Source of the DNA: Membranipora membranacea | Taxonomy: Eukaryota > Bryozoa > Gymnolaemata > Cheilostomatida > Membraniporidae | DNA: 64,000 nt | Assembly (NCBI GenBank): GCA_914767715.1 | Contig: OU612075.1 | Coordinates: 2,912,001 to 2,976,000 of the forward strand | Direction: 5' to 3' | Part shown: positions 3,001 through 49,771 of the stretch, in pieces | How the letters are laid out: each line of letters begins with the position of its first letter | Numbering within the stretch: the stretch's first letter is position 1 | Translations under genes and position numbers: made by a program | The notes under the pieces: model-generated | The model's database searches: none | The model's input: the letters and a program-made list of their open reading frames with translations, nothing else | What the model was told of the DNA's origin: nothing

Positions 3001-6000
3001 GTTCATCCTATGAATAATACAACCAGAGGAGACAACTCCGCATATTATTGCATCCATGAAACACTTAATTCTGCTATAGGGTTAGGATGTATTAAAGGAT
3101 TGAAAGCCTTGCATAACAACTTTCTGTCATATTATTTTAGCACTTCCTCAGATTTAAAGCTTCTAATATCGGTGAGAAGAATGATCCACACTACTTCTGT
3201 GAGGTAAGCAAATATGTGTAAATGTAAAATATTATAATATCATATTACTTCCTTATATTAAGAATAGGCATGTAACTTTTTTTATTGCTGTTTTATGAAA
3301 CCAGACTGTAAGAATGATCTACCATTTTAGCTTTGAGAGAATTCTATTCGGCTTCCAATCGTACATCACTGGGCTAATTCAACATTGAATACATAATACA
3401 AATTAGTTTCAAGTTTCACTCAAAGCAATGATATTACAATATTACAATGCAATTACTCCACTGATGTCTCATTCTAGATCTGCCTGAGGAAAGTGGAACA
3501 CGAGGATCAGTATATCGAGTCTCACCTGACTAATGAGAAACACTGCAAGAAACTGGCTGTGAGTTTAATATGCTTGTCGAATGTCAGTGGCACTTGCCAT
3601 GATGTGTCCGTCAAGCCCCTTCAGTTAACCTTTGGGCTGGGGTTTACATGATGACATGTTAAGTTCGCTCCTTTTTTATCATATGGGTTTGGGAAGAATA
3701 CTCTACTTTCTTTCATGTGTATAGACAAGCTGAAGACAGAAACGTTCATTGAATATTCTTCATAGTCTTCATTAAATACTTAACCCATTGTTGCAGATGT
3801 TGAGAGCAAACCTTGATGACAGTCTAAGTGGAGGTCCCGTAACTCGTATCCTTACAGATGAGGAGGATGGTGACCTGGATCCATGTCCTGATGATCTAGA
3901 GGTTAACTGGGTACATCCAGCTACTGCCAGGCTCAATGAGGCTGAGGACGGGGTAAGTACTACCACTACGACCATTCCATGGAGTTTAGAAAGAGTCCTA
4001 TGTAAAAATTGTTTATTACTTGCAAGCACTGTCTCGATCAATGCTGGAGTTATTGTTATGGAGAGAGAGAGAGAAAAAGAGAGATCGTTTTTTTGTGTAT
4101 CATCAATGGTGAAGCAAAATTATGGAAACTGTAAGAAGGTGTTGTCATTTAGGTGTCTGATACTAAAAGGTATGAAATTGTTTGAAGAAACGAGTTGTGC
4201 GCCACTTAGCTGATAAAATTGTTTTCCTACCTGGAACATAATGTTTGTTAAAAATATGCTGTTTGTCATTAATAAAATTGACACAACCGTATGTATGTAT
4301 GCTTCTTATAAATAATTATTTTACAGGCACGACCAGATGTTGCTGTTGCAGTGCAGCCTCCCATCCAGCAGCATTTGGGAGGTCCTCATAATCAGCAGCC
4401 ATTCCAACCTCAGAATCAGATGCCACCTATGGACATGCAGCAGCCACTTCAATTCGGCAATCAGAATGGTCCAGGACCTGGACCACAAAAAGGGCCATTT
4501 GATCAGAGTAATATGCCTATGGGACAGATGATGCCGCAGGGTATGATCCTGCCCAACATGGGTCCACAGAATATGGGTCCACAGAATATGGGACCTCAAA
4601 ATATGGGACCTGGAAACATGGGATCTGGAAACATGGGACCTGGAAACATGGGACCTGGAAACATGGGACCTGGAAACATGGGACCTGGAAACATGGGACC
4701 TGGTAACATGGGACCTCGAAATATGGGACCTCAAAACATGGGACCTCAAAACATGGGACAACAAAACATGGGACCCATGGGTGTGGGACCTATGAATATT
4801 GGACCCATGGGTATGGGACCAATGAATATGGGACCACAAAACACGGGATCTCAGAACAAGGGACCACAGAACATGGGACTGCCTAACATGGGACTGCCAA
4901 ACATGGGACTGCCTAACATGGGACTGCCTAACATTGGACAGCCTAACATTGGACTGCCTAATATGGGGCTACAGAATATGGGACCTAATATGGGCAAAGG
5001 TCCTCAAATGGTGAGTTTCTGTCAATGATTTTAAGCCGTGACATCCTTGTCATAAACCACTTAGTCAAACAGTTATAGTGGGATACTAGTTCAAATTTTG
5101 CTTCGTGGCGTCATAAAGTTTTAAGATGTTCACCTGAAGTATATCATTTATAGGCCCTGCAGTTGTGTGATTGTGAAATTTTTTATTTAAATAACAATGA
5201 GCCACCATGTTGCAACAGAAAACAATATGAAGATCACTGTGGGTACAACATTGATGAATATTTTTTTATAGATGAATATGGGCACACTTATGAATGGTCA
5301 AGGTGGACCTATGAACATGCCCGGCGGACCAATGAACATGCCTGGTGGTCCCAACCCTATGGGTATGCCTGGTGGAGGACCTATGAATATGGGTAGGGGA
5401 CCTATGCAGCAGATGGGCCAAGGAGGACCTATGTCTGATGATCGATCTGATAGGACTGAGGAGCGGGGTATGAGTAGAGATCAGAGAAGGAGAGAGAGAG
5501 AAGAGAGACATGAGAGAAAACATCAGAGGAGGGACGAGGACCGGAAACGTAGAGAAGAGGATAACAGGAGACGACAGATGGAGGAGGCACAGAGGGTAAG
5601 CTTCTCTATATTGCATGATGATTTGTTGTTAGGCCTATGTGGAAACATGGACTTTGAATACTCAGAATAGTAACATTTGAAATCTGTAAGGCTGAATGTT
5701 TAAAAGGTTTCTGTCTCATGTCCATTATGTGAATTCAGATCTGGCATTTTTTATATGGATACTAACAGATAATATGATATGGTGACAGTAATATTACGGT
5801 TCTAAGGAACATAATAGATATTAGTTAAAATGTTATAATATTTGTTTTATTTTATCAATTTGATGATGTTTGTTTAACTAATATCACTAGGTGATAGTGG
5901 GGAATGTAAAAAAAAAAAGAAAAATTGTTAATTGAATCATATCTGGCTTTTGTTGGTGTAGAACATGTGGCTTTACAGCGAGAATACATTCTACATTCAA

Positions 6001-40156: not shown

Positions 40157-43100
40157 ATGAGTAAGAGGAGGGGAAACCCAGACGGAAACCCACCAATGTG
40201 TGTTAAGCAGGCTAAGACAGACAAACCAACCAGAGCCAGTCAGCGTAAGTGTCAAAAGGTTACACAATTTGTAAAGCTTACGAATAGTTTTAGTCCATAA
40301 TGCTAGTGAGTTGATGCTGACAAATGAAGGCAATGAATGGCTAATGGCTTAGGCTTGGTGCCCAATTTTAGGAGTTGCATGACCCTTGCAGTGGTACACC
40401 ATGTAAATCACAAAATAGTGCAATCACTATGTGATACCTATCTTAAGATTCCAGCAGTGTCAGAATTCTACGACTCTACGAGTAACATTTTGGGCTAAAG
40501 TCTAATTGTGAACATGAATCGCTTTTGCTAGTGGATGACCTGTATATTAGGATTTCCTTCCAGATTTCATTCCTGCATGTAGCAGTCAGTAAATCCTTCA
40601 TACACCATATATATTCAGAGTTATACATCTCATAAAACAGCTCTGTTATCAGAAAGATGCTTTTTAATGGCATGTCTTCAATTGAAAAATAAGAGTTCAA
40701 TAATAAAAAATATTTTCGTATCAGCCACTTAAATTTACCCTTGTTACACAGTTTATAGTTTTAGCACAAATAAATAACTGGTATATCAATGCTAAGATGA
40801 CTGAGGAGTTATAAAAATAGTGTGTGTGATGTTTTACCAACATACTGTACCATATCAGTTGGCTCCTAGTCTTAATTTGACAGGCTGGTGTTTCATAATA
40901 CCTTGAATATTTATTTTGTGGTATACTCCAGGCTATACAATTGGTTACCAGACAAATCTCAATCTAACACCGGGCAGTAAACAATTTCCAGAGATCAAAA
41001 CGGAGCACGTCACTGTAGATGAGTTGATTGCAGCTTCAAGAGGAATGGAAATATCATATATGTGTATTGATGGAGATATTCCACCTCAAATGGACACCAT
41101 AGCACCGAATCTTCAGTGGCTAGAACTTAGATCTCTATCTCACAATGCAGAGCTACAAAGGTTTGTAATATAATCGTTGGACGTTTATAGCAATATTGAT
41201 GATTTTTGGATTTTTTAAGAGAGTTGTCTTCCCATGGCGTGATTTCTGAGCGATTTTAGAGATTTTTCAGAAAATAAAATGTTGGCGACTTTTAAAAACG
41301 TTCAGAAACTTCGCATTACAAGGCAGCTATTCAAAAACGTTGACACTGCTAAAAGCGTACAGAAAAACGTCCTAGTGTAAACTCACCTTAACAGAGGGAG
41401 AATCGGGGCTATACGTTTCTAAATTAAACAATTCACTTTCCATAAGAAAACAATTTCATATTGGTTGGTACACAAGTATTTCAAAGGGTTGTCTTTTCTT
41501 GTTCAAAAAGAAGACAACATACTACTAATTATGCGGGTTAGAAAAATGTGGGTTAAAATCTCAAGTTCTGTCTCTGTCCGAAGACTGAGAAATAATGGTG
41601 CCCTAAAGACTTACTTTGCAGCTGCAATTTTGTATCACATCTTATTATCCATATTTTATTCTATCATGTGAGCGATTTCCAGCTTTAGAAGCCAAATATT
41701 GACGAAGTTATGGTCTCTCAAACCTTCAAGCTGATGACCTTCAATTGGCATTGGGAATCAGCGGGCAATCCTTGTGGGACGTCACAACCGTCCTACTTAT
41801 TATGATATACTAGTAGATCGGATGATGATCAAAACACTCAGAGATTTAGAGGGTCTTGAACCCCGGTCCAAATGGCCCAGCAACGCAACGGTAGCCATCG
41901 GCGTTGCCTGCTGGTATAAAGGACCCGGGTTCGAGTACCACCGAGGTCTGAATTTTGATCATCATCTTATTTGTTGGGTTATTAATATAATAGGTATGAT
42001 GCGTTGTGACGTCCCACAAGGATTGCCTGCTGATTCTTAATGTCGATTGACTGCCGTCACTTTGAAAGTTTGAGAGACCACAACTTTCGCAATATTTGGA
42101 TTCTACAGCTGGAAATCGCGTTCATGATAGAATTGAATATGGAGAATAAGATGTGGTACAAAATAGCAGCCTCATAGTAAGTCGTTAAACTTCCACTCAT
42201 GCAAATTTGTGCTCATTGAATTCTGCATAGCTTCGAGATAATTAATTGGGACTTTAATCTTATAATTGTCACCTAATGGGCATATAATTTGCACAAACTG
42301 ATATTCAAAATCAGGGCATGAAATCTACACACCAGCTGATGACGTGTACAATTTGCACTAGTAAGACGGTAACTTTATCACCTGTTGAGGTAGATAATTA
42401 ATTTCATACCCTAAATTTGACGATAAGTTTGTGCAAATTATTTACTCATTAGTTTTGAGCTATACAGAATTCTATAAGCACACATTTGGCTGTGTGGCAG
42501 CAGTGGTTTAAGGGCACTACCACCATGTTTGGCGCCAAGTTGCTTTCAGTTTGCAAGGAAAACAGTGTGTACCTGGGGCATCGATTGAACCCAGTAGTCA
42601 GTGATTCGAACCCTGGACCTCTATAAAATATCCCTTAAAAACCTGATAATCATAGAGACCCTTGAAAAGTGCGAATCATTATTCGGAAAACATTCAAATA
42701 TGTAAGATTCACTAACAAGGTCGTTATAAAACTGTTTATGAAGTATGCTTATTGTTACAGTATCAAAGCACTGACCAGACTCTCCACTATGATTATCAGC
42801 GAAAAAAAGATTCAACATACTACCATCCCTGAGAGCATCGGTCAGCTGACTAATCTCACCTCACTGAGTATCAGCGGCGACTCACTCACTACCATCCCTG
42901 AGAGCATCGGTCAGCTGACTAATCTCACCTCACTGAGTATCAGCGGCGACTCACTCACTACTATCCCTGAGAGCATCGGTCAGCTGACTAATCTCACCTC
43001 ACTGAGTATCAGCGGCGACTCACTCACTACCATCTCTGAGAGCATCGGTCAGCTGACTAATCTCACCTCACTGAGTATCAGTGGCTCCTCACTTACTACC

Positions 43101-46100
43101 ATCCCTGAGAGCATCGGTCAGCTGAGTAATCTCACCTCACTGAGTATCAGCGGCGACTCACTCACTACCATCCCTGAGAGCATCGGTCAGCTGACTAATC
43201 TCACCTCACTAAGTATCAGTGGCTCCTCACTTACTACCATCCCTGAGAGCATCGGTCAGCTGAGTAATCTCACCTCACTGAGTATCAGCGGCGACTCACT
43301 CACTACCATCCCTGAGAGCATCAGTCAGCTGACTAATCTCACCTCACTGAGTATCAGCGGCGACTCACTCACTACTATCCCTGAGAGCATCGGTCAGCTG
43401 ACTAATCTCACCTCGCTGAGTATCAGCGGCGACTCACTCACTACCATCCCTGAGAGCATCGGTCAGCTGACTAATCTCACCTCACTGAGTATCAGCGGCG
43501 ACTCACTCACTACCATACCTGAGAGCATCGGTCAGCTGACTAATCTCACCACAGTGAGTATCAGCTGCTACTCACACACTGTCATGCCTGAGAGCATCGG
43601 TCAGCTGACTAATCTCACCTCACTGAGTATCAGCGGCAACTCACTCACTACCATCCCTGAGAGCATCGGTCAGCTGACTAATCTCACCTCACTGCGTATC
43701 CGGAATGACTCACTCACTACCATACCTGAGAGCATCGGTCAGCTGACTAATCTCACCTCACTGAGTATCGACGGCCCCTCACTTACTACCATCCCTGAGA
43801 GCATCGGTCAGCTGACTAATCTCACCTCACTGAGTATCAGTGGCTTCTCACTTACTACCATCCCTGAGAGCATCGGTCAGCTGACTAATCTCACCTCACT
43901 GCGTATCCGGAATGACTCACTCACTACCATACCTGAGAGCATCGGTCAGCTGATTAATCTCACCACACTGAGTATCAGCGGCGACTCACTCACTACCATC
44001 CCTGAGAGCATCGGTCAGCTGACTAATCTCACCTCACTGCGTATCCGGAATTACTCACTCACTACCATACCTGAGAGCATCGGTCAGCTGACTAATCTCA
44101 CCTCACTGAGTATCAGCGGCAACTCACTCACTACCATCCCTGAGAGCATCGGTCAGCTGACTAATCTCACCTCACTGCGTATCCGGAATGACTCACTCAC
44201 TACCATACCTGAGAGCATCGGTCAGCTGACTAATCTCACCTCACTGAGTATCGACGGCCCCTCACTTACTACCATCCCTGAGAGCATCGGTCAGCTGACT
44301 AATCTCACCTCACTGAGTATCAGTGGCTTCTCACTTACTACCATCCCTGAGAGCATCGGTCAGCTGACTAATCTCACCTCACTGCGTATCCGGAATGACT
44401 CACTCACTACCATACCTGAGAGCATCGGTCAGCTGATTAATCTCACCACACTGAGTATCAGCGGCGACTCACTCACTACCATACCTGAGAGCATCGGTCA
44501 GCTGACTAATCTCCCCTCACTGCGTATCCGGAATGACTCACTCACTACCATACCTGAGAGCATCGGTCAGCTGACTAATCTCACCTCACTGACTATCGAC
44601 GGCCCCTCACTCACTACCATACCTGAGAGCATCGGTCAGCTGACTAATCTCACCACACTGAGTATCAGCGGCGACTCACTCACTACCATACCTGAGAGCA
44701 TCGGTCAGCTGACTAATCTCACCTCACTGGATATCAGCGGAAACTCACTTACTACCATACCTGAGAGCATCGGTCAGCTGATTAATCTCACCACACTGAG
44801 TATCAGCGGCGACTCACTCACTACCATACCTGAGAGCATCGGTCAGCTGACTAATCTCACCACACTGAGTATCAGCGGCAGCTCACTCACTACCATACCT
44901 GTGAGCATCGGTCAGCTGACTAATCTCACCTCACAGGATATCAGCAGAAACTCACTTACTACCATACCTGAGAGCATTGGTCAGCTGACTAATCTCACCT
45001 CACTGAGTATCTACGGCTACTCACTCACTACCATACCTGAGAGCATCGGTCAGCTGACTAATCTCACCTCACTGAGTATCAGTGGCTTCTCACTTACTAC
45101 CATCCCTGAGAGCATCGGTCAGCTGACTAATCTCACCTCACTGAATATCAGCGGAAACTCACTTACTACCATACCTGAGAGCATTGGTCAGCTGACTAAT
45201 CTCACCTCACTGAGTATCTACGGCTACTCACTCACTACCATACCTGAGAGCATCGGTCAGCTGACTAATCTCACCTCACTGAGTATCCACGGCCCCTCAC
45301 TCACTACCATACCTGAGAGCATCGGTCAGCTGACTAATCTCACCTCACTGGATATCAGCGGCAACTCATTTACTACCATCCCTGATGGCATCGGTCAGCT
45401 GACTAATCTCACCTCACTGGATATCAGCGGAAACTCACTTACTACCATCCCTGAGAGCATCGGTCAGCTGACTAATCTCACCTCACTGAGTATCAGCGGC
45501 GACTCACTCACTACCATCTCTGAGAGCATCGGTCAGCTGACTAATCTCACCTCACTGAGTATCAGTGGCTCCTCACTTACTACCATCCCTGAGAGCATCG
45601 GTCAGCTGAGTAATCTCACCTCACTGAGTATCAGCGGCGACTCACTCACTACCATCCCTGAGAGCATCGGTCAGCTGACTAATCTCACCTCACTAAGTAT
45701 CAGTGGCTCCTCACTTACTACCATCCCTGAGAGCATCGGTCAGCTGAGTAATCTCACCTCACTGAGTATCAGCGGCGACTCACTCACTACCATCCCTGAG
45801 AGCATCAGTCAGCTGACTAATCTCACCACACTGAGTATCAGCTGCTTCTCACTCACTACCATCCCTGAGAGCATCGGTCAGCTGACTAATCTCACCTCAC
45901 TGAGTATCAGTGGCTACTCACTCTCTACCATACCTGAGAGCATCGGTCAGCTGACTAATCTCACCTCACTGAGTATCAAAGGCCCCTCACTCACTACCAT
46001 ACCAGAAAACATCTTCAACATTATGACACTACAACAGCTCAGATGTCATGGCTGTTTATCTCTAACATCACCACCTCGAGAGGTCTGTGCTCAGGGCCTT

Positions 46101-49100
46101 TTTGCTGTTAGAAGGTACTTCAATGACATGCACTTGGAGAGAGGGCGTAACCAGCGACTTATACCTGTTACGGTTATTGGGAATAGCAAAGCAGGGAAAA
46201 CAAGTCTGGTGTTGAGTGTTCAACAAAATAAAAGAGTATTAACTGAACGGTATCCTGCTGAAAACAAATTGGATGAGGCAACAAGAGTCTTCAAAGTATG
46301 CGAGGCAGAGGTCACTAACACTTCTAAATTGGTATTTTCTGACTTTGGAGGGCAAAAGATTTACAATTTTTCATACCAATTAAGCTTCAAAGCCCGATGT
46401 CTGCCGCTACTTGTAATAGATATTGCAGAATTTGACAGATTAGCCTCAAGAGATGGGGAGGAAGCTGCATGCCAAGAAGTCTGTATTAAGTGGCTGACAC
46501 ACTTATATCTCTCATGTCCGAGTCTCGGCCGACCGACAATAGTCCTTACACATTGTGATAGAGTTACTGATCAATGCCTACAAGATCGAATGCAACAGCT
46601 TGTGAACACTACAGAAACTTTACGTATGAGGATCATCAAGGAAGAGAACAGAGTAGGATCTACATTGAGCCCATTCTTTATCATGGCTAGCTTCGCAGAT
46701 ATCACTGAACCGTTTGTAAGGACAGAAAACATTGCCAACCTCTCAAAGACCTCTAATCTAGCTGACATTGAGAAACTTAAACTATTCCTTGAAGCTGCAG
46801 GATCTAAGATTATCACTGAATTACCAGCAAGCTGGTACCGAATACTCATCAAAATAACGAGTGACAAAGACAAGCCGTTCTTCACACTATCTGAGATAGA
46901 TGAGCTCTTTCCTGATGACACTGATCATGTCGCACTTCAGTATCTTCATGATTCAGGCCGAATTATGTGGTTCAAGAGTGTCAAAGGTCTCTCCTCCTTC
47001 ATTTTCCATCGTCCTGAGGTTCTCACTGCTCTTATTGAGACACTGTATAATCACACTCAAGATGTCGCCTGGGTTACACGATTAGCTAACTTTACCTCAT
47101 ATATGTGGGCTGGAAAGACAATCGAGACTAGCAAATATACGGAGATGGTCAATCAGTTTCAATCGACAGGTGTTATGGAAGCTGCATTGCTCCATAATAT
47201 ACTAGAACAAGAATCAGAGCTTCACCCTGACACTGGAATTGAAGTCCTGAAAACTTTCCACCTTATACACAAGTTCGCAGACAAATGTATCATCCCTTAC
47301 TTTGCTACCAGGAAAATCTCTATTCCTGCCATTCATACTCATCTCATCCCACTTAAAGTAGATCTGTTTCTGCGAGGTCTACCTGTCCCCACGTATGTCT
47401 ACTCACTCATCACGGCGGCATATCTAGACATCAATGTGAACCCAGTCAATCATGTCGAGGCTGGAAGGAATGGCGCTACTGTCACAGAGATCATCGGCCT
47501 GTTCAAATACCTTGTTCACGATGAATCTGCAAGACGTGTGACATTGATTATCCTCAGCCCAGCAACGAGAATCTGTGAGGCATGGAGGGATCAATTGGAC
47601 ACGTTGAGCAAACTAACAACTGAATTGAAAACTGTGTGGAAGGCTGTCCGTTATGAAAGTGTTTTCTATTGCTCACATTGTCTGCTGAACAACATACAAA
47701 ACCCAACTACACATGTCGATCCTGCTTGGCTCGAGCAGCCAACACTACTAGAGAGAAGATTCTCAGGGGATGAGACATGCTACTGCCGACATAGGAAGAA
47801 TAGTGAGGCTGAGCAATCGATTCCACTCCCGCTCATGTATCCATGTAAGAAGATAAGCTGGAAAAATCGTTGCCTTTTTAAGACATATTCAGATCACTTT
47901 TGATTTGCGATCATTGCGCTTCTTTGACAGCTCATCTCAATCCCTTTTATGGCAAGACGTTGTTCCCAAACTATGATTTTAAAGCATTCTAATTGTGAAA
48001 TTATTGAACAATAGTATTTACTGAATCTTTTCATGTAGAAATCTAGTTTCAGGTTTTTTGACAGAGATGTTGGGTTGAAATCACATTTTATGCTTACAAA
48101 TTTTGGTCAAAGCAGATTTAAAAAGAAGGGTATAAAATAATGATAGAGTTTATTTGGTTTATTATACTTGCTGTTCTCATTACAGGTTTGACCAGCAGCG
48201 AGCAAGGACATGATAGATTACAAGACTACGTGACAAATCTCACAGCTCTGTCAGGTAAGACAGATAAGTCAGCTCCGACAGGGCTTCATAATAATTCAAT
48301 CTAACCATGGATTACGATTAAAATCCTCTTAGACTACAAGAAATGTTCAGAACAATGCAATATTGAATACTTATTCGCAGGCTGCATGTTAGGTTAAGAA
48401 AATTGAAAAAAAAATTTTAATTGAATCCAATTTAAAGCAACTCGATACAAATGGAAGAAACTGCATTATAAAGCTGGTTGAATTGCTTTAAAATATAGCG
48501 TTTAATCTGTTTATTCCCATTTTCGTGCATAGCTTAAGCATCGTTGTAGCAGTTATTACCACTAAAACTACATTAATTTATTTTCATAGATAAGTCGCAA
48601 GTGATGAAGCTGCTTATGGAAAAGTATCCACTGGACACGAGCGACATCAGACTGTTATGTGATCTTAGTGATCAGTACATCATACCCTATACACAAACCC
48701 ATGTGAAACGATGTGGGCTCGTGCTATTCAACAAAGATGGTAGAGTTAACGCGCTAGAGGAGGCCTATACTATAGAAGATGGCCTCACAAGTGCAGGCAT
48801 TGAGACGAAGAAGACGGAATGGTCTAGTGCTATACAGCTATTTGACTCGATAAAAACTCAAATCACAGAACTGGTCTCATGTGGACTGTCCCTACTCGTG
48901 ATGTCCATCATGTCACATGGTATAGCTGGAATGCTAACAGGAAGTGACCACACACAGGCAATCATTTCTGACATCCTCAAAGAAACAGAAAAACAGCTAC
49001 CAGAACACATACCTTTGGTAAGAAGAGCTATTAATATCTTGTTCCCTTATGTCATTTTTGGGATAGTTTCACAGGGTTTACATTAGATCTACCAGTACGA

Positions 49101-49771
49101 GTCATGTGTCCTCATCCGCCATTGTAACTTTCTGCAAAAATGATGATATGAGTTAGTCTGAGAACAAACACAACACTAGGATGATGATGTGGAACGCAAA
49201 GAAATTCAAACTTTGCATCCACTCCACACGTTATCAGCTTGTAATGGGTATCAATTACAATTCTCAAACAAGCTCATGTATGTATGTAACCTGTCCCTGC
49301 ACTGTTACATAAAACATGATGATTTGTAGTTGTATTCTATTGTTGTAGATAATTATAATCCAGGCCTGTCAGGGTGAACATGAAGCTTCTGGATCAACCT
49401 CTACAAACAGCCTAAGAGATGCCCAGGGCTCAACAGCAAAGGATAACCAGCATATAAATCTGAAGAGGCCTCACACCTTGTTACAAATGTCTACAGTACA
49501 TGGAGGGATGTCTGTCAGAGGGGCGTTCACTGGAGCTATCGCGAGACAGATAGCTAAAGCTGATGGTAAGACTACTATAGAAGAGATGGTGACTAAGGCT
49601 AATATAGATCTAAAGAAGAACGAACCAGATCAGTACAATCAGACACCAATACTAAGAAGTACACTTCAGAAGAGTCTAGTACTTCCACCAGGAGAGCAGA
49701 AATCTGATTCTCTACAAAGCCTGAATAAACCATCTAAAATCAGTCTTCTCAAAAAGCTTGGTGTTCTTTAG
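40157..49771 (+). CDS. LRR-Roc-COR-caspase fusion protein
   Basis: Six exons: 40157-40244, 40932-41160, 42761-47844, 48186-48254, 48590-49017, 49349-49771. All phases agree and the total of 6321 nt is divisible by 3, giving 2106 residues. Order: N-terminal segment with degenerate LRRs (1-127); 46 LRRs of 23 residues (128-1185); Roc GTPase with P-loop GNSKAGKTS (about 1246), DFGGQ (about 1300) and THCD (about 1369); COR domain starting near LPASWYR (about 1460) and running to about 1800; short linker; caspase p20 with SHG (His1933) and QACQG (Cys1973); then p10 with SVRG. Roc-COR acts as a GTP-dependent dimerising switch, and caspases are cytosolic Cys proteases cleaving after Asp. Inference: a single-chain sensor-switch-protease for cell death or immunity. 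There is no signal peptide or membrane segment. The ATG at 40157 was chosen because its exon joins in phase. If the donor at 47845 is not used, translation stops at 47903 without the caspase. Confidence 0.85.
41604..42190. mobile_element. Large foldback element with tRNA-like centre
   Basis: About 190 bp at 41604-41795 recur inverted at 42000-42190 with roughly 85% identity (for example gattgcctgctgattc against gaatcagcgggcaatc). The unique centre contains A-box-like tggcccagcaacgcaacgg and B-box-like gggttcgagtacc around 41873-41942. It lies in intron 2 of the LRR-Roc-COR-caspase gene. No protein coding. Confidence 0.75.
42488..42625 (-). repeat. Possible tRNA-derived SINE fragment
   Basis: On the minus strand ccagggttcgaatcac resembles a Pol III B box. 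On the plus strand tggcagcagtggtttaag is A-box-like. The orientation conflict leaves the class uncertain. Intronic. Confidence 0.3.
42825..45998 (+). repeat. 46-copy 69-bp tandem array encoding leucine-rich repeats
   Basis: Exactly 46 x 69 bp with no indel, all inside one exon. Each unit encodes a 23-residue LRR that begins IPESIGQLTNL and ends SLTT. Variation is concentrated in the seven residues between TSL and SLTT (SISGD, SISGS, RIRND, SIDGP, SISGF, SIYGY, SIHGP, SIKGP and others). Nucleotide identity between units is very high. Larger duplicated blocks are visible: repeats 12-17 recur as 19-24, and 3-8 recur closely as 39-44. Confidence 0.97.
47845..47903 (+). promoter_or_regulatory. Splice donor that decides caspase inclusion
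   Basis: Donor gtaaga at 47845. Splicing to 48186 adds the caspase. Retention adds 19 codons and reaches a TGA at 47901-47903, leaving an LRR-Roc-COR protein. Confidence 0.55.

Follow-up and report, generated by a model that had tools for sequence, protein, structure and literature searches.

A Roco gene with a predicted caspase of its own, and the large gene family around it, in the bryozoan Membranipora membranacea

The subject of this analysis is a gene of the bryozoan Membranipora membranacea, found on the forward strand of contig OU612075.1 (assembly GCA_914767715.1) between positions 2,912,001 and 2,976,000. This whole stretch of 64,000 nucleotides is called the window, and positions given without a prefix are counted from its first letter. 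When six exons lying between 40157 and 49771 are joined, the predicted product of 2106 amino acids carries, in this order, 46 leucine-rich repeats (LRRs) of 23 residues, the Roc and COR domains, a short linker, and finally a caspase marked by the motifs SHG and QAC. Every intron is of the GT-AG type, the phases are consistent and no internal stop interrupts the product; the phase-consistent six-exon model proposed by a first-pass annotation of this DNA is right in substance. The features of the gene are the following.

40157..40244, forward strand: exon 1, with the start codon and a short N-terminus; its GT donor matches exon 2 in phase
40932..41160, forward strand: exon 2, a conserved N-terminal piece with matching phases
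42761..47844, forward strand: exon 3, with the LRR array, Roc and COR, supported by phase and Pfam
42819..45998 (approximate ends), forward strand: 46 LRR units of 69 nucleotides or 23 amino acids, from a unit-by-unit repeat analysis
46098..47843, forward strand: Roc-COR stretch with the P-loop GNSKAGKTS, DFGGQ and THCD; Pfam scores slightly under the cut-offs, Foldseek match to 3dpu, alignment with 15 relatives
48186..48254, forward strand: exon 4, the linker, in phase 1 at both ends, with a homologous exon in 12 of the 22 copies scanned
48590..49017, forward strand: exon 5, the caspase p20 half with SHG, supported by profile, model, Foldseek and alignment
49349..49771, forward strand: exon 6, with QACQG, the caspase p10 half and the stop codon; Peptidase_C14 match at 1.7e-10 and 150 listed relatives in the genome

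The segment located between the repeats and the caspase has the domain order of a Roco protein, Roc being followed directly by COR, with both Pfam scores below cut-off. The Pfam scan covered five pieces of the gene, exons 1 and 4 lying outside it, with E 1 as the upper limit for a match. Within the window copy, Roc was matched at 8.8e-6 (26.4 bits for a cut-off of 27) and COR-A at 7.9e-6 (26.3 bits for a cut-off of 35.3); in the paralogue L019, Roc is over the Pfam cut-off (35.4) and COR-A under it (25.8). An AlphaFold2 model of the Roc-COR stretch, built with 16 sequences, reached a pLDDT (predicted local distance difference test) of 70.5 and a pTM (predicted template modelling score) of 0.52. 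Foldseek ranked the Roc-COR tandem of the Chlorobium tepidum Roco protein first (3dpu, E 1.1e-13, at TM-scores of 0.32/0.36, which are low) and LRRK1 next. The presence of N-terminal LRRs, seen by Pfam and by repeat analysis, places the product in the LRR-Roco group. No kinase family appeared among the Pfam matches in the scanned exons, which sets it apart from the LRRK type, and neither a kinase before Roc nor a death domain after COR, the marks of the DAPK1 group, was among these matches, exons 1 and 4 being outside the scan. NACHT and NB-ARC were both absent from the Pfam matches of the five pieces and the switch piece matches Roc, so that the protein is not of the NLR or STAND kind.

The sensor part has LRR_14 as its best LRR model (1.1e-213). 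The array consists of 46 units of exactly 23 amino acids and one divergent last unit, and the number of repeats given in the first-pass annotation is borne out by the repeat analysis. The most variable positions of the unit are 17, 19, 20 and 21 (entropy of 0.95-2.29 bits, the next ones reaching 0.77 and 0.62), which presumably lie on the concave side in the LxxLxLxxN scheme. The ratio of non-synonymous to synonymous differences (pN/pS) at these four positions is 0.99 in the window and 1.37 in a second copy, L011, for 0.43 and 0.31 elsewhere, these being descriptive values obtained by pooling pairs of distinct units that are not independent. The open frame of L011 is 2462 amino acids long, compared with 1745 in the window, and 60 LRR units were counted in the fetched part of it. 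No identical 69-nucleotide unit is common to the two arrays. For 31 of the 46 window units an L011 unit lies one to three changes away, and 25 of the 46 have an identical twin within the window array. Because twins are found inside the window array and no identical unit is shared by the two genes, the LRR array seems to homogenize within a gene and to diverge between genes.

At the other end of the product, exon 6 matches Peptidase_C14 above the Pfam cut-off (1.7e-10, 41.4 bits), and the domain search suggested in the first-pass annotation is thereby borne out for the peptidase, and for Roc and COR-A only at scores slightly below their cut-offs. The p20 exon alone gave no Pfam match up to E 1, and further profile and fold work was therefore devoted to it. 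Single exons compared with PDB sequences gave no match up to E 1 for p10 and one irrelevant match at 1.1 for p20. A profile of eight p20 copies, however, matched caspases in the PDB (best 7.9e-4), and the p20 model (pLDDT 81.5) found caspases in all of its best 50 of 1770 Foldseek rows (best 1.5e-5). The histidine of SHG or THG is present in 9/9 aligned p20 exons, L034 being recovered in part and L033 not being caught by the pattern; QACQ and the arginine of the p10 'RG' are both present in 10/10 aligned p10 exons. Arg51 of p20 is invariant in eight of eight copies and aligns with the arginine of 'TRNGTD' in an ancestral caspase-3/6/7. The His and Cys motifs are taken here to be the catalytic dyad, and Arg51 together with the 'RG' arginine to be candidate residues of the pocket for the P1 aspartate. 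The dyad thus follows the order expected of a caspase, with SHG in the p20 half (exon 5) and QACQG ahead of the p10 half (exon 6). The QAC cysteine is residue 1973 of the spliced product, 40 residues beyond the SHG histidine, as the first-pass annotation had counted, and the two halves that it recognized are now backed by Pfam for p10 and by profile and fold for p20. An Asp-Ala pair located between p20 and p10 in nine of ten copies (absent from L035) is a plausible self-cleavage site.

The joint between the two parts was read in many copies. The Roc-COR frame remains open past 47844 up to a stop at 47903. In 15 of 22 copies, the end of the Roc-COR exon was found by pattern as a Cys codon TGT followed in frame by gtaag (8), gtgag (5) or gtatg (2); a GT after TGT is given by the construction of the pattern, and the informative part is that all 15 codons are TGT and are followed by donor-like letters, the seven copies without a match saying nothing either way. 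In a second scan, made on partly different copies, 12/22 showed an acceptor followed by a linker exon resembling exon 4, three showed the exon tail without a linker, and seven showed neither. In the seven copies whose window-type p20 exon was read at its start, the exon is immediately preceded by an AG acceptor (ag|AT in six, ag|GT in L035) that restores the phase-1 codon, and in none is its first residue Met. An independent caspase gene that has an ATG of its own, named in the first-pass annotation as the observation that would speak against a fusion, accordingly finds no support for the window type and is rejected there on this reading and on the recurring linker exon, although exons of the second caspase type described below do carry a conserved ATG. 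The second copy, 91 kb downstream (L011), has a DNA likeness of 93% over the 7.1 kb aligned, with splice borders kept and joined exons open. Between the two copies, the ratio of non-synonymous to synonymous rates (dN/dS) is 0.45 in Roc-COR (27 and 17 changes) and 0.36 in exons 4-6 (14.5 and 11.5), these counts being small.

The same architecture was then sought in the whole assembly of 339 Mb and 18 contigs. With the Roc-COR exon of the window as query, 75 matches 49-100% identical were scored out of 227 candidates; a more distant Roc-COR copy gave 73 out of 232, and the COR-A family nine. Taken together, these searches define at least 131 distinct Roc-COR loci on nine contigs, a lower bound given that unscored candidates remain. 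Among the nine COR-A places, at least two (C11:7341465 and C11:16351571) may be ordinary Rocos. On the caspase side, the Pfam family gave 145 matches (140 of 515 candidates scored) and the p10 exon of the window 150 matches of 260 candidates. For 23 of the 75 Roc-COR exons, the next 5 kb downstream contain a Pfam caspase match on the same strand; no exon has one within 5 kb upstream or within 5 kb on the opposite strand, and shifting positions by 20, 50 and 100 kb gives 0, 0 and 1. When Pfam and p10 matches are combined, a caspase exon follows within 5 kb on the same strand in 72/75 and within 10 kb in 74/75; the p10 controls gave on the same strand upstream none at 5 kb and three at 10 kb, and on the opposite strand none within 10 kb. 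The 75th exon (L037) was found by direct reading to have its caspase exon too. Chance adjacency is ruled out by the 72 of 75 at 5 kb against controls of zero. Among the 47 copies unique to the distant query, 31 have a Pfam caspase within 5 kb (none upstream or on the opposite strand), and L038, the only one read directly of the other 16, contains a caspase. Six of the nine COR-A places have a caspase, with L021 as a seventh by a weak match (6.1e-8). The fusion of a Roco protein to a caspase, first noticed in a single gene, is therefore supported well beyond the window by many paralogues, a recurring linker exon and an intact second copy. Two further observations concern this family. At C5:4.1-7.6 Mb, the first caspase match lies exactly 722 bases downstream in each of 13 Roc-COR copies, which are recent copies of one unit. 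The place C11:7341400-7345400 (L039) has COR-A above the Pfam cut-off and no caspase match in the 4 kb downstream, and is possibly an ordinary animal Roco.

Two types of caspase are found in this family. Type A (window, L011, L029-L035) combines SHG or THG with QACQ; type B (L004, L014, L019 and others) combines SHG with QACAG, and its representative in L004 has CED-3 and caspase-2 as best PDB matches. Type B units open with a conserved ATG, which in most copies read lies a few bases past an acceptor. Near C11:2.80 Mb, three type B caspases follow one another about 3 kb apart (L009:5075-8820 and L010:1357-1922), and these stretches contain no Roc-COR match. The p10 exon of L033 (frame f0 1669-2223, reverse complement) ends, by eye, in a hydrophobic C-terminal tail, a possible membrane anchor. 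The neighbouring loci L018 and L019 share 92-97% DNA identity across Roc-COR and the linker exon, up to L018:6180 and L019:4270, where the match stops; beyond this breakpoint L018 continues with a type A caspase and then a type B unit, and L019 with a single type B caspase. This looks like an exchange of effectors at the intron that follows the linker.

As to the N-terminal exons, the ATG of exon 1 is common to two copies whose flanks are about 94% alike as well, which lends it weak support. Exon 2 matches no Pfam family up to E 1 and has homologues at 106 places in the genome, one of which (C11:3041596) is upstream of the second copy. Intron 2 contains an inverted repeat (41604-42187) with arms of 185 nucleotides, 84% complementary and 214 nucleotides apart, which resembles a short mobile element. 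Outside the Roco-caspase gene, the window also contains an open frame of 238 amino acids with NMGPQNMGP-type repeats (4312-5028).

These data are most readily understood if a sensor made of LRRs, a GTPase switch formed by Roc-COR and a caspase are all parts of one polypeptide, probably intracellular, that triggers an alarm response or the death of the cell, a reading that we regard as rather likely. An immune or cell-death role is probably that of such a one-chain receptor. The binding of a ligand by the LRR array would alter the state of Roc-COR, which depends on the bound nucleotide, the tethered caspases would meet and become active by proximity, and cleavage at the Asp-Ala pair between p20 and p10 would help activation and stabilize the halves. 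The active caspase would then cut substrates after Asp and lead to cell death or an alarm reaction, so that the family would amount to a germline repertoire of receptors, each with an executioner built in. In C. tepidum the Roco dimer dissociates upon GTP binding; the switch of the present protein may work in either direction. Inflammasomes and apoptosomes likewise combine an LRR or other sensor, a nucleoside triphosphate switch and a caspase activated by proximity; they differ in their switch, which is a STAND ATPase, and in their caspase, which is a distinct protein brought in through CARD, PYD or DED. A single-chain version of this mechanism, as proposed by the first-pass annotation, fits the anatomy of the predicted product.

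Several points weigh against this interpretation. The gene is known here from its DNA sequence, and the Roc and COR-A scores of the window copy are both under Pfam's own cut-offs; the elevated ratios at the concave positions of the repeats come from non-independent pairs. Of the 145 Pfam caspase matches, only 62 have a listed Roc-COR in the 5 kb before them and the other 83 have none, and for 98 of the 150 window-type p10 matches the 10 kb upstream contain no listed Roc-COR; such caspases may work apart, sit behind other receptors or stand behind unlisted Roc-COR copies. The conserved ATG would allow type B caspases to be translated separately, and the second caspase unit of L018 (L018:7459-9494, in C10:22182000-22191500) has STGTE and QSVEG in place of the catalytic motifs. 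A rival reading is that of two adjoining genes duplicated as a pair, a Roco gene ending near 47903, where its open frame meets a stop, and a caspase gene of its own. A gene model drawn from DNA leaves room for such a pair, as do the type B ATG and the three type B caspases of L009 and L010 that have no Roc-COR match in their stretches. The agreement of frames and phases through exons 3 to 6, the linker exon placed after an acceptor in 12 of 22 scanned copies and the window-type p20 exons without start Met in all seven copies read nevertheless make this arrangement very unlikely.

Decay of the copy, or a caspase retained as a non-catalytic regulator, is suggested by the L018 unit that has lost SHG and QAC and by a stop within the matched stretch of one LRR-Roc-COR paralogue (C3:14209909). 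In these exons, however, the frame is open both in the window copy and in a twin 95% identical to it, with dN/dS below 0.5 (on small counts of 27 and 14.5 non-synonymous changes), and the catalytic dyad is kept in the aligned copies, so that this explanation appears improbable. Contamination by bacteria or an artefact of assembly might be invoked because the same architecture has been reported in bacteria (PMC8195603), and is hardly credible for a gene that contains introns, belongs to a set of 131 loci on nine contigs, shares its assembly with wnt genes (47 exon-level matches, which mark the genome as that of an animal) and has no confirmed relative in a scan of prokaryote genomes with two short peptide patterns; it was rejected on these grounds. 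A different proposal accepts the receptor and its caspase output, and assigns it to the recognition of other individuals or to the control of developmental cell turnover rather than to pathogens. Fast-changing LRRs and large clusters would equally well fit a system by which individuals tell self from non-self, and nothing in the data separates this proposal from an immune role; we hold it to be unlikely.

Several known systems come close to this architecture. Bacterial LRR-AP-GTPase(Roc)-COR proteins end in one of at least 24 kinds of domains, caspase included, and DAP kinase has been named as their metazoan counterpart (PMC8195603). The bryozoan proteins resemble those with a caspase in their order of LRR, Roc, COR and caspase, in their many copies and in their exchangeable C-terminal effectors; they differ in that the bacterial ones are prokaryotic, form conflict systems as inferred in that paper and use at least 24 kinds of effectors, whereas only caspases were found in the copies examined here (PMC8195603). 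Roco proteins have been grouped into LRR-only, kinase and DAPK types (PMC6337361). The bryozoan product shares Roc-COR with LRRK1/2, MFHAS1 and DAPK1, and LRRs with LRRK1/2 and MFHAS1, but these proteins are described with a kinase, a death domain or no effector, and not with a caspase (PMC6337361). The list of animal Roco types in the first-pass annotation (LRRK, MFHAS1 and DAPK1) proves incomplete, since Aplysia has Toll-like and MyD88-like proteins in which ROCO domains are combined with TIR (PMC9334734). In these proteins too an animal Roc-COR is connected to a domain of immune signalling, here TIR and not a caspase; one of them, which is MyD88-like, also has a death-like domain (PMC9334734). 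In the ROCO genes of brown algae, four concave sites of LRRs 23 amino acids long are positively selected (PMC11378527). Unit length and number of concave-face sites are thus alike, but each algal LRR has its own exon and the genes comprise LRR-ROC-COR only, unlike the present one (PMC11378527). A paper on the NLRs of Dysidea avara includes CASc and COR among the domain abbreviations of a figure legend, and its section 3.3 describes no protein that joins them (PMC12909245). Literature searches, which covered few subscription papers and left preprints and supplements outside, found no animal Roc-COR-caspase protein. The claim that no animal Roco-caspase fusion had been described agrees with these searches, and must be set beside the bacterial precedent, the LRR-Roc-COR-caspase plan itself being already known from bacteria (PMC8195603).

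Relatives were also sought beyond this genome. In viral contigs 119 pattern matches were obtained and in prokaryote genomes 125 matches to the two short peptide patterns, none being confirmed as relatives, and PADLOC recognized no family up to E 0.01 in four pieces. Metagenomes provided 13 Roc-COR proteins and 25 p10 proteins, none of which joins both parts. For two of them, P0001 (Roc-COR) and P0028 (p10), the longest contig listed is a JGI contig of 5183 bases, which may be one and the same. P0014 has 99% identity to the window; by eye, P0001, P0006 and P0028 are very close to the genomic copies L031 and L032. These four proteins may come from the same or a near species. Because of this possible origin, and because none joins both parts, the fusion is not claimed for other species.

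Well-studied animals recruit their initiator caspases to sensor platforms through adaptor domains. At about even chances, Membranipora would possess a whole intracellular receptor system built on a Roco GTPase instead of a STAND ATPase, with more than 100 genes, LRR arrays that homogenize and change in length, joined caspases, and effectors exchanged after a constant linker exon, as seen between L018 and L019. If true, this would be a third animal solution beside the inflammasome and the apoptosome, on a plan like that of the bacterial conflict proteins, and an animal counterpart of bacterial LRR-Roc-COR-effector proteins. Were sensor, GTPase and caspase united in one chain throughout a large animal family, the activation of a caspase by a ligand could be tested with a single protein, and the outputs that a Roco switch is able to control in animals would come to light, with a bearing on LRRK2. 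Its LRR arrays would also preserve a record of how recognition surfaces diversify through the turnover of repeats.

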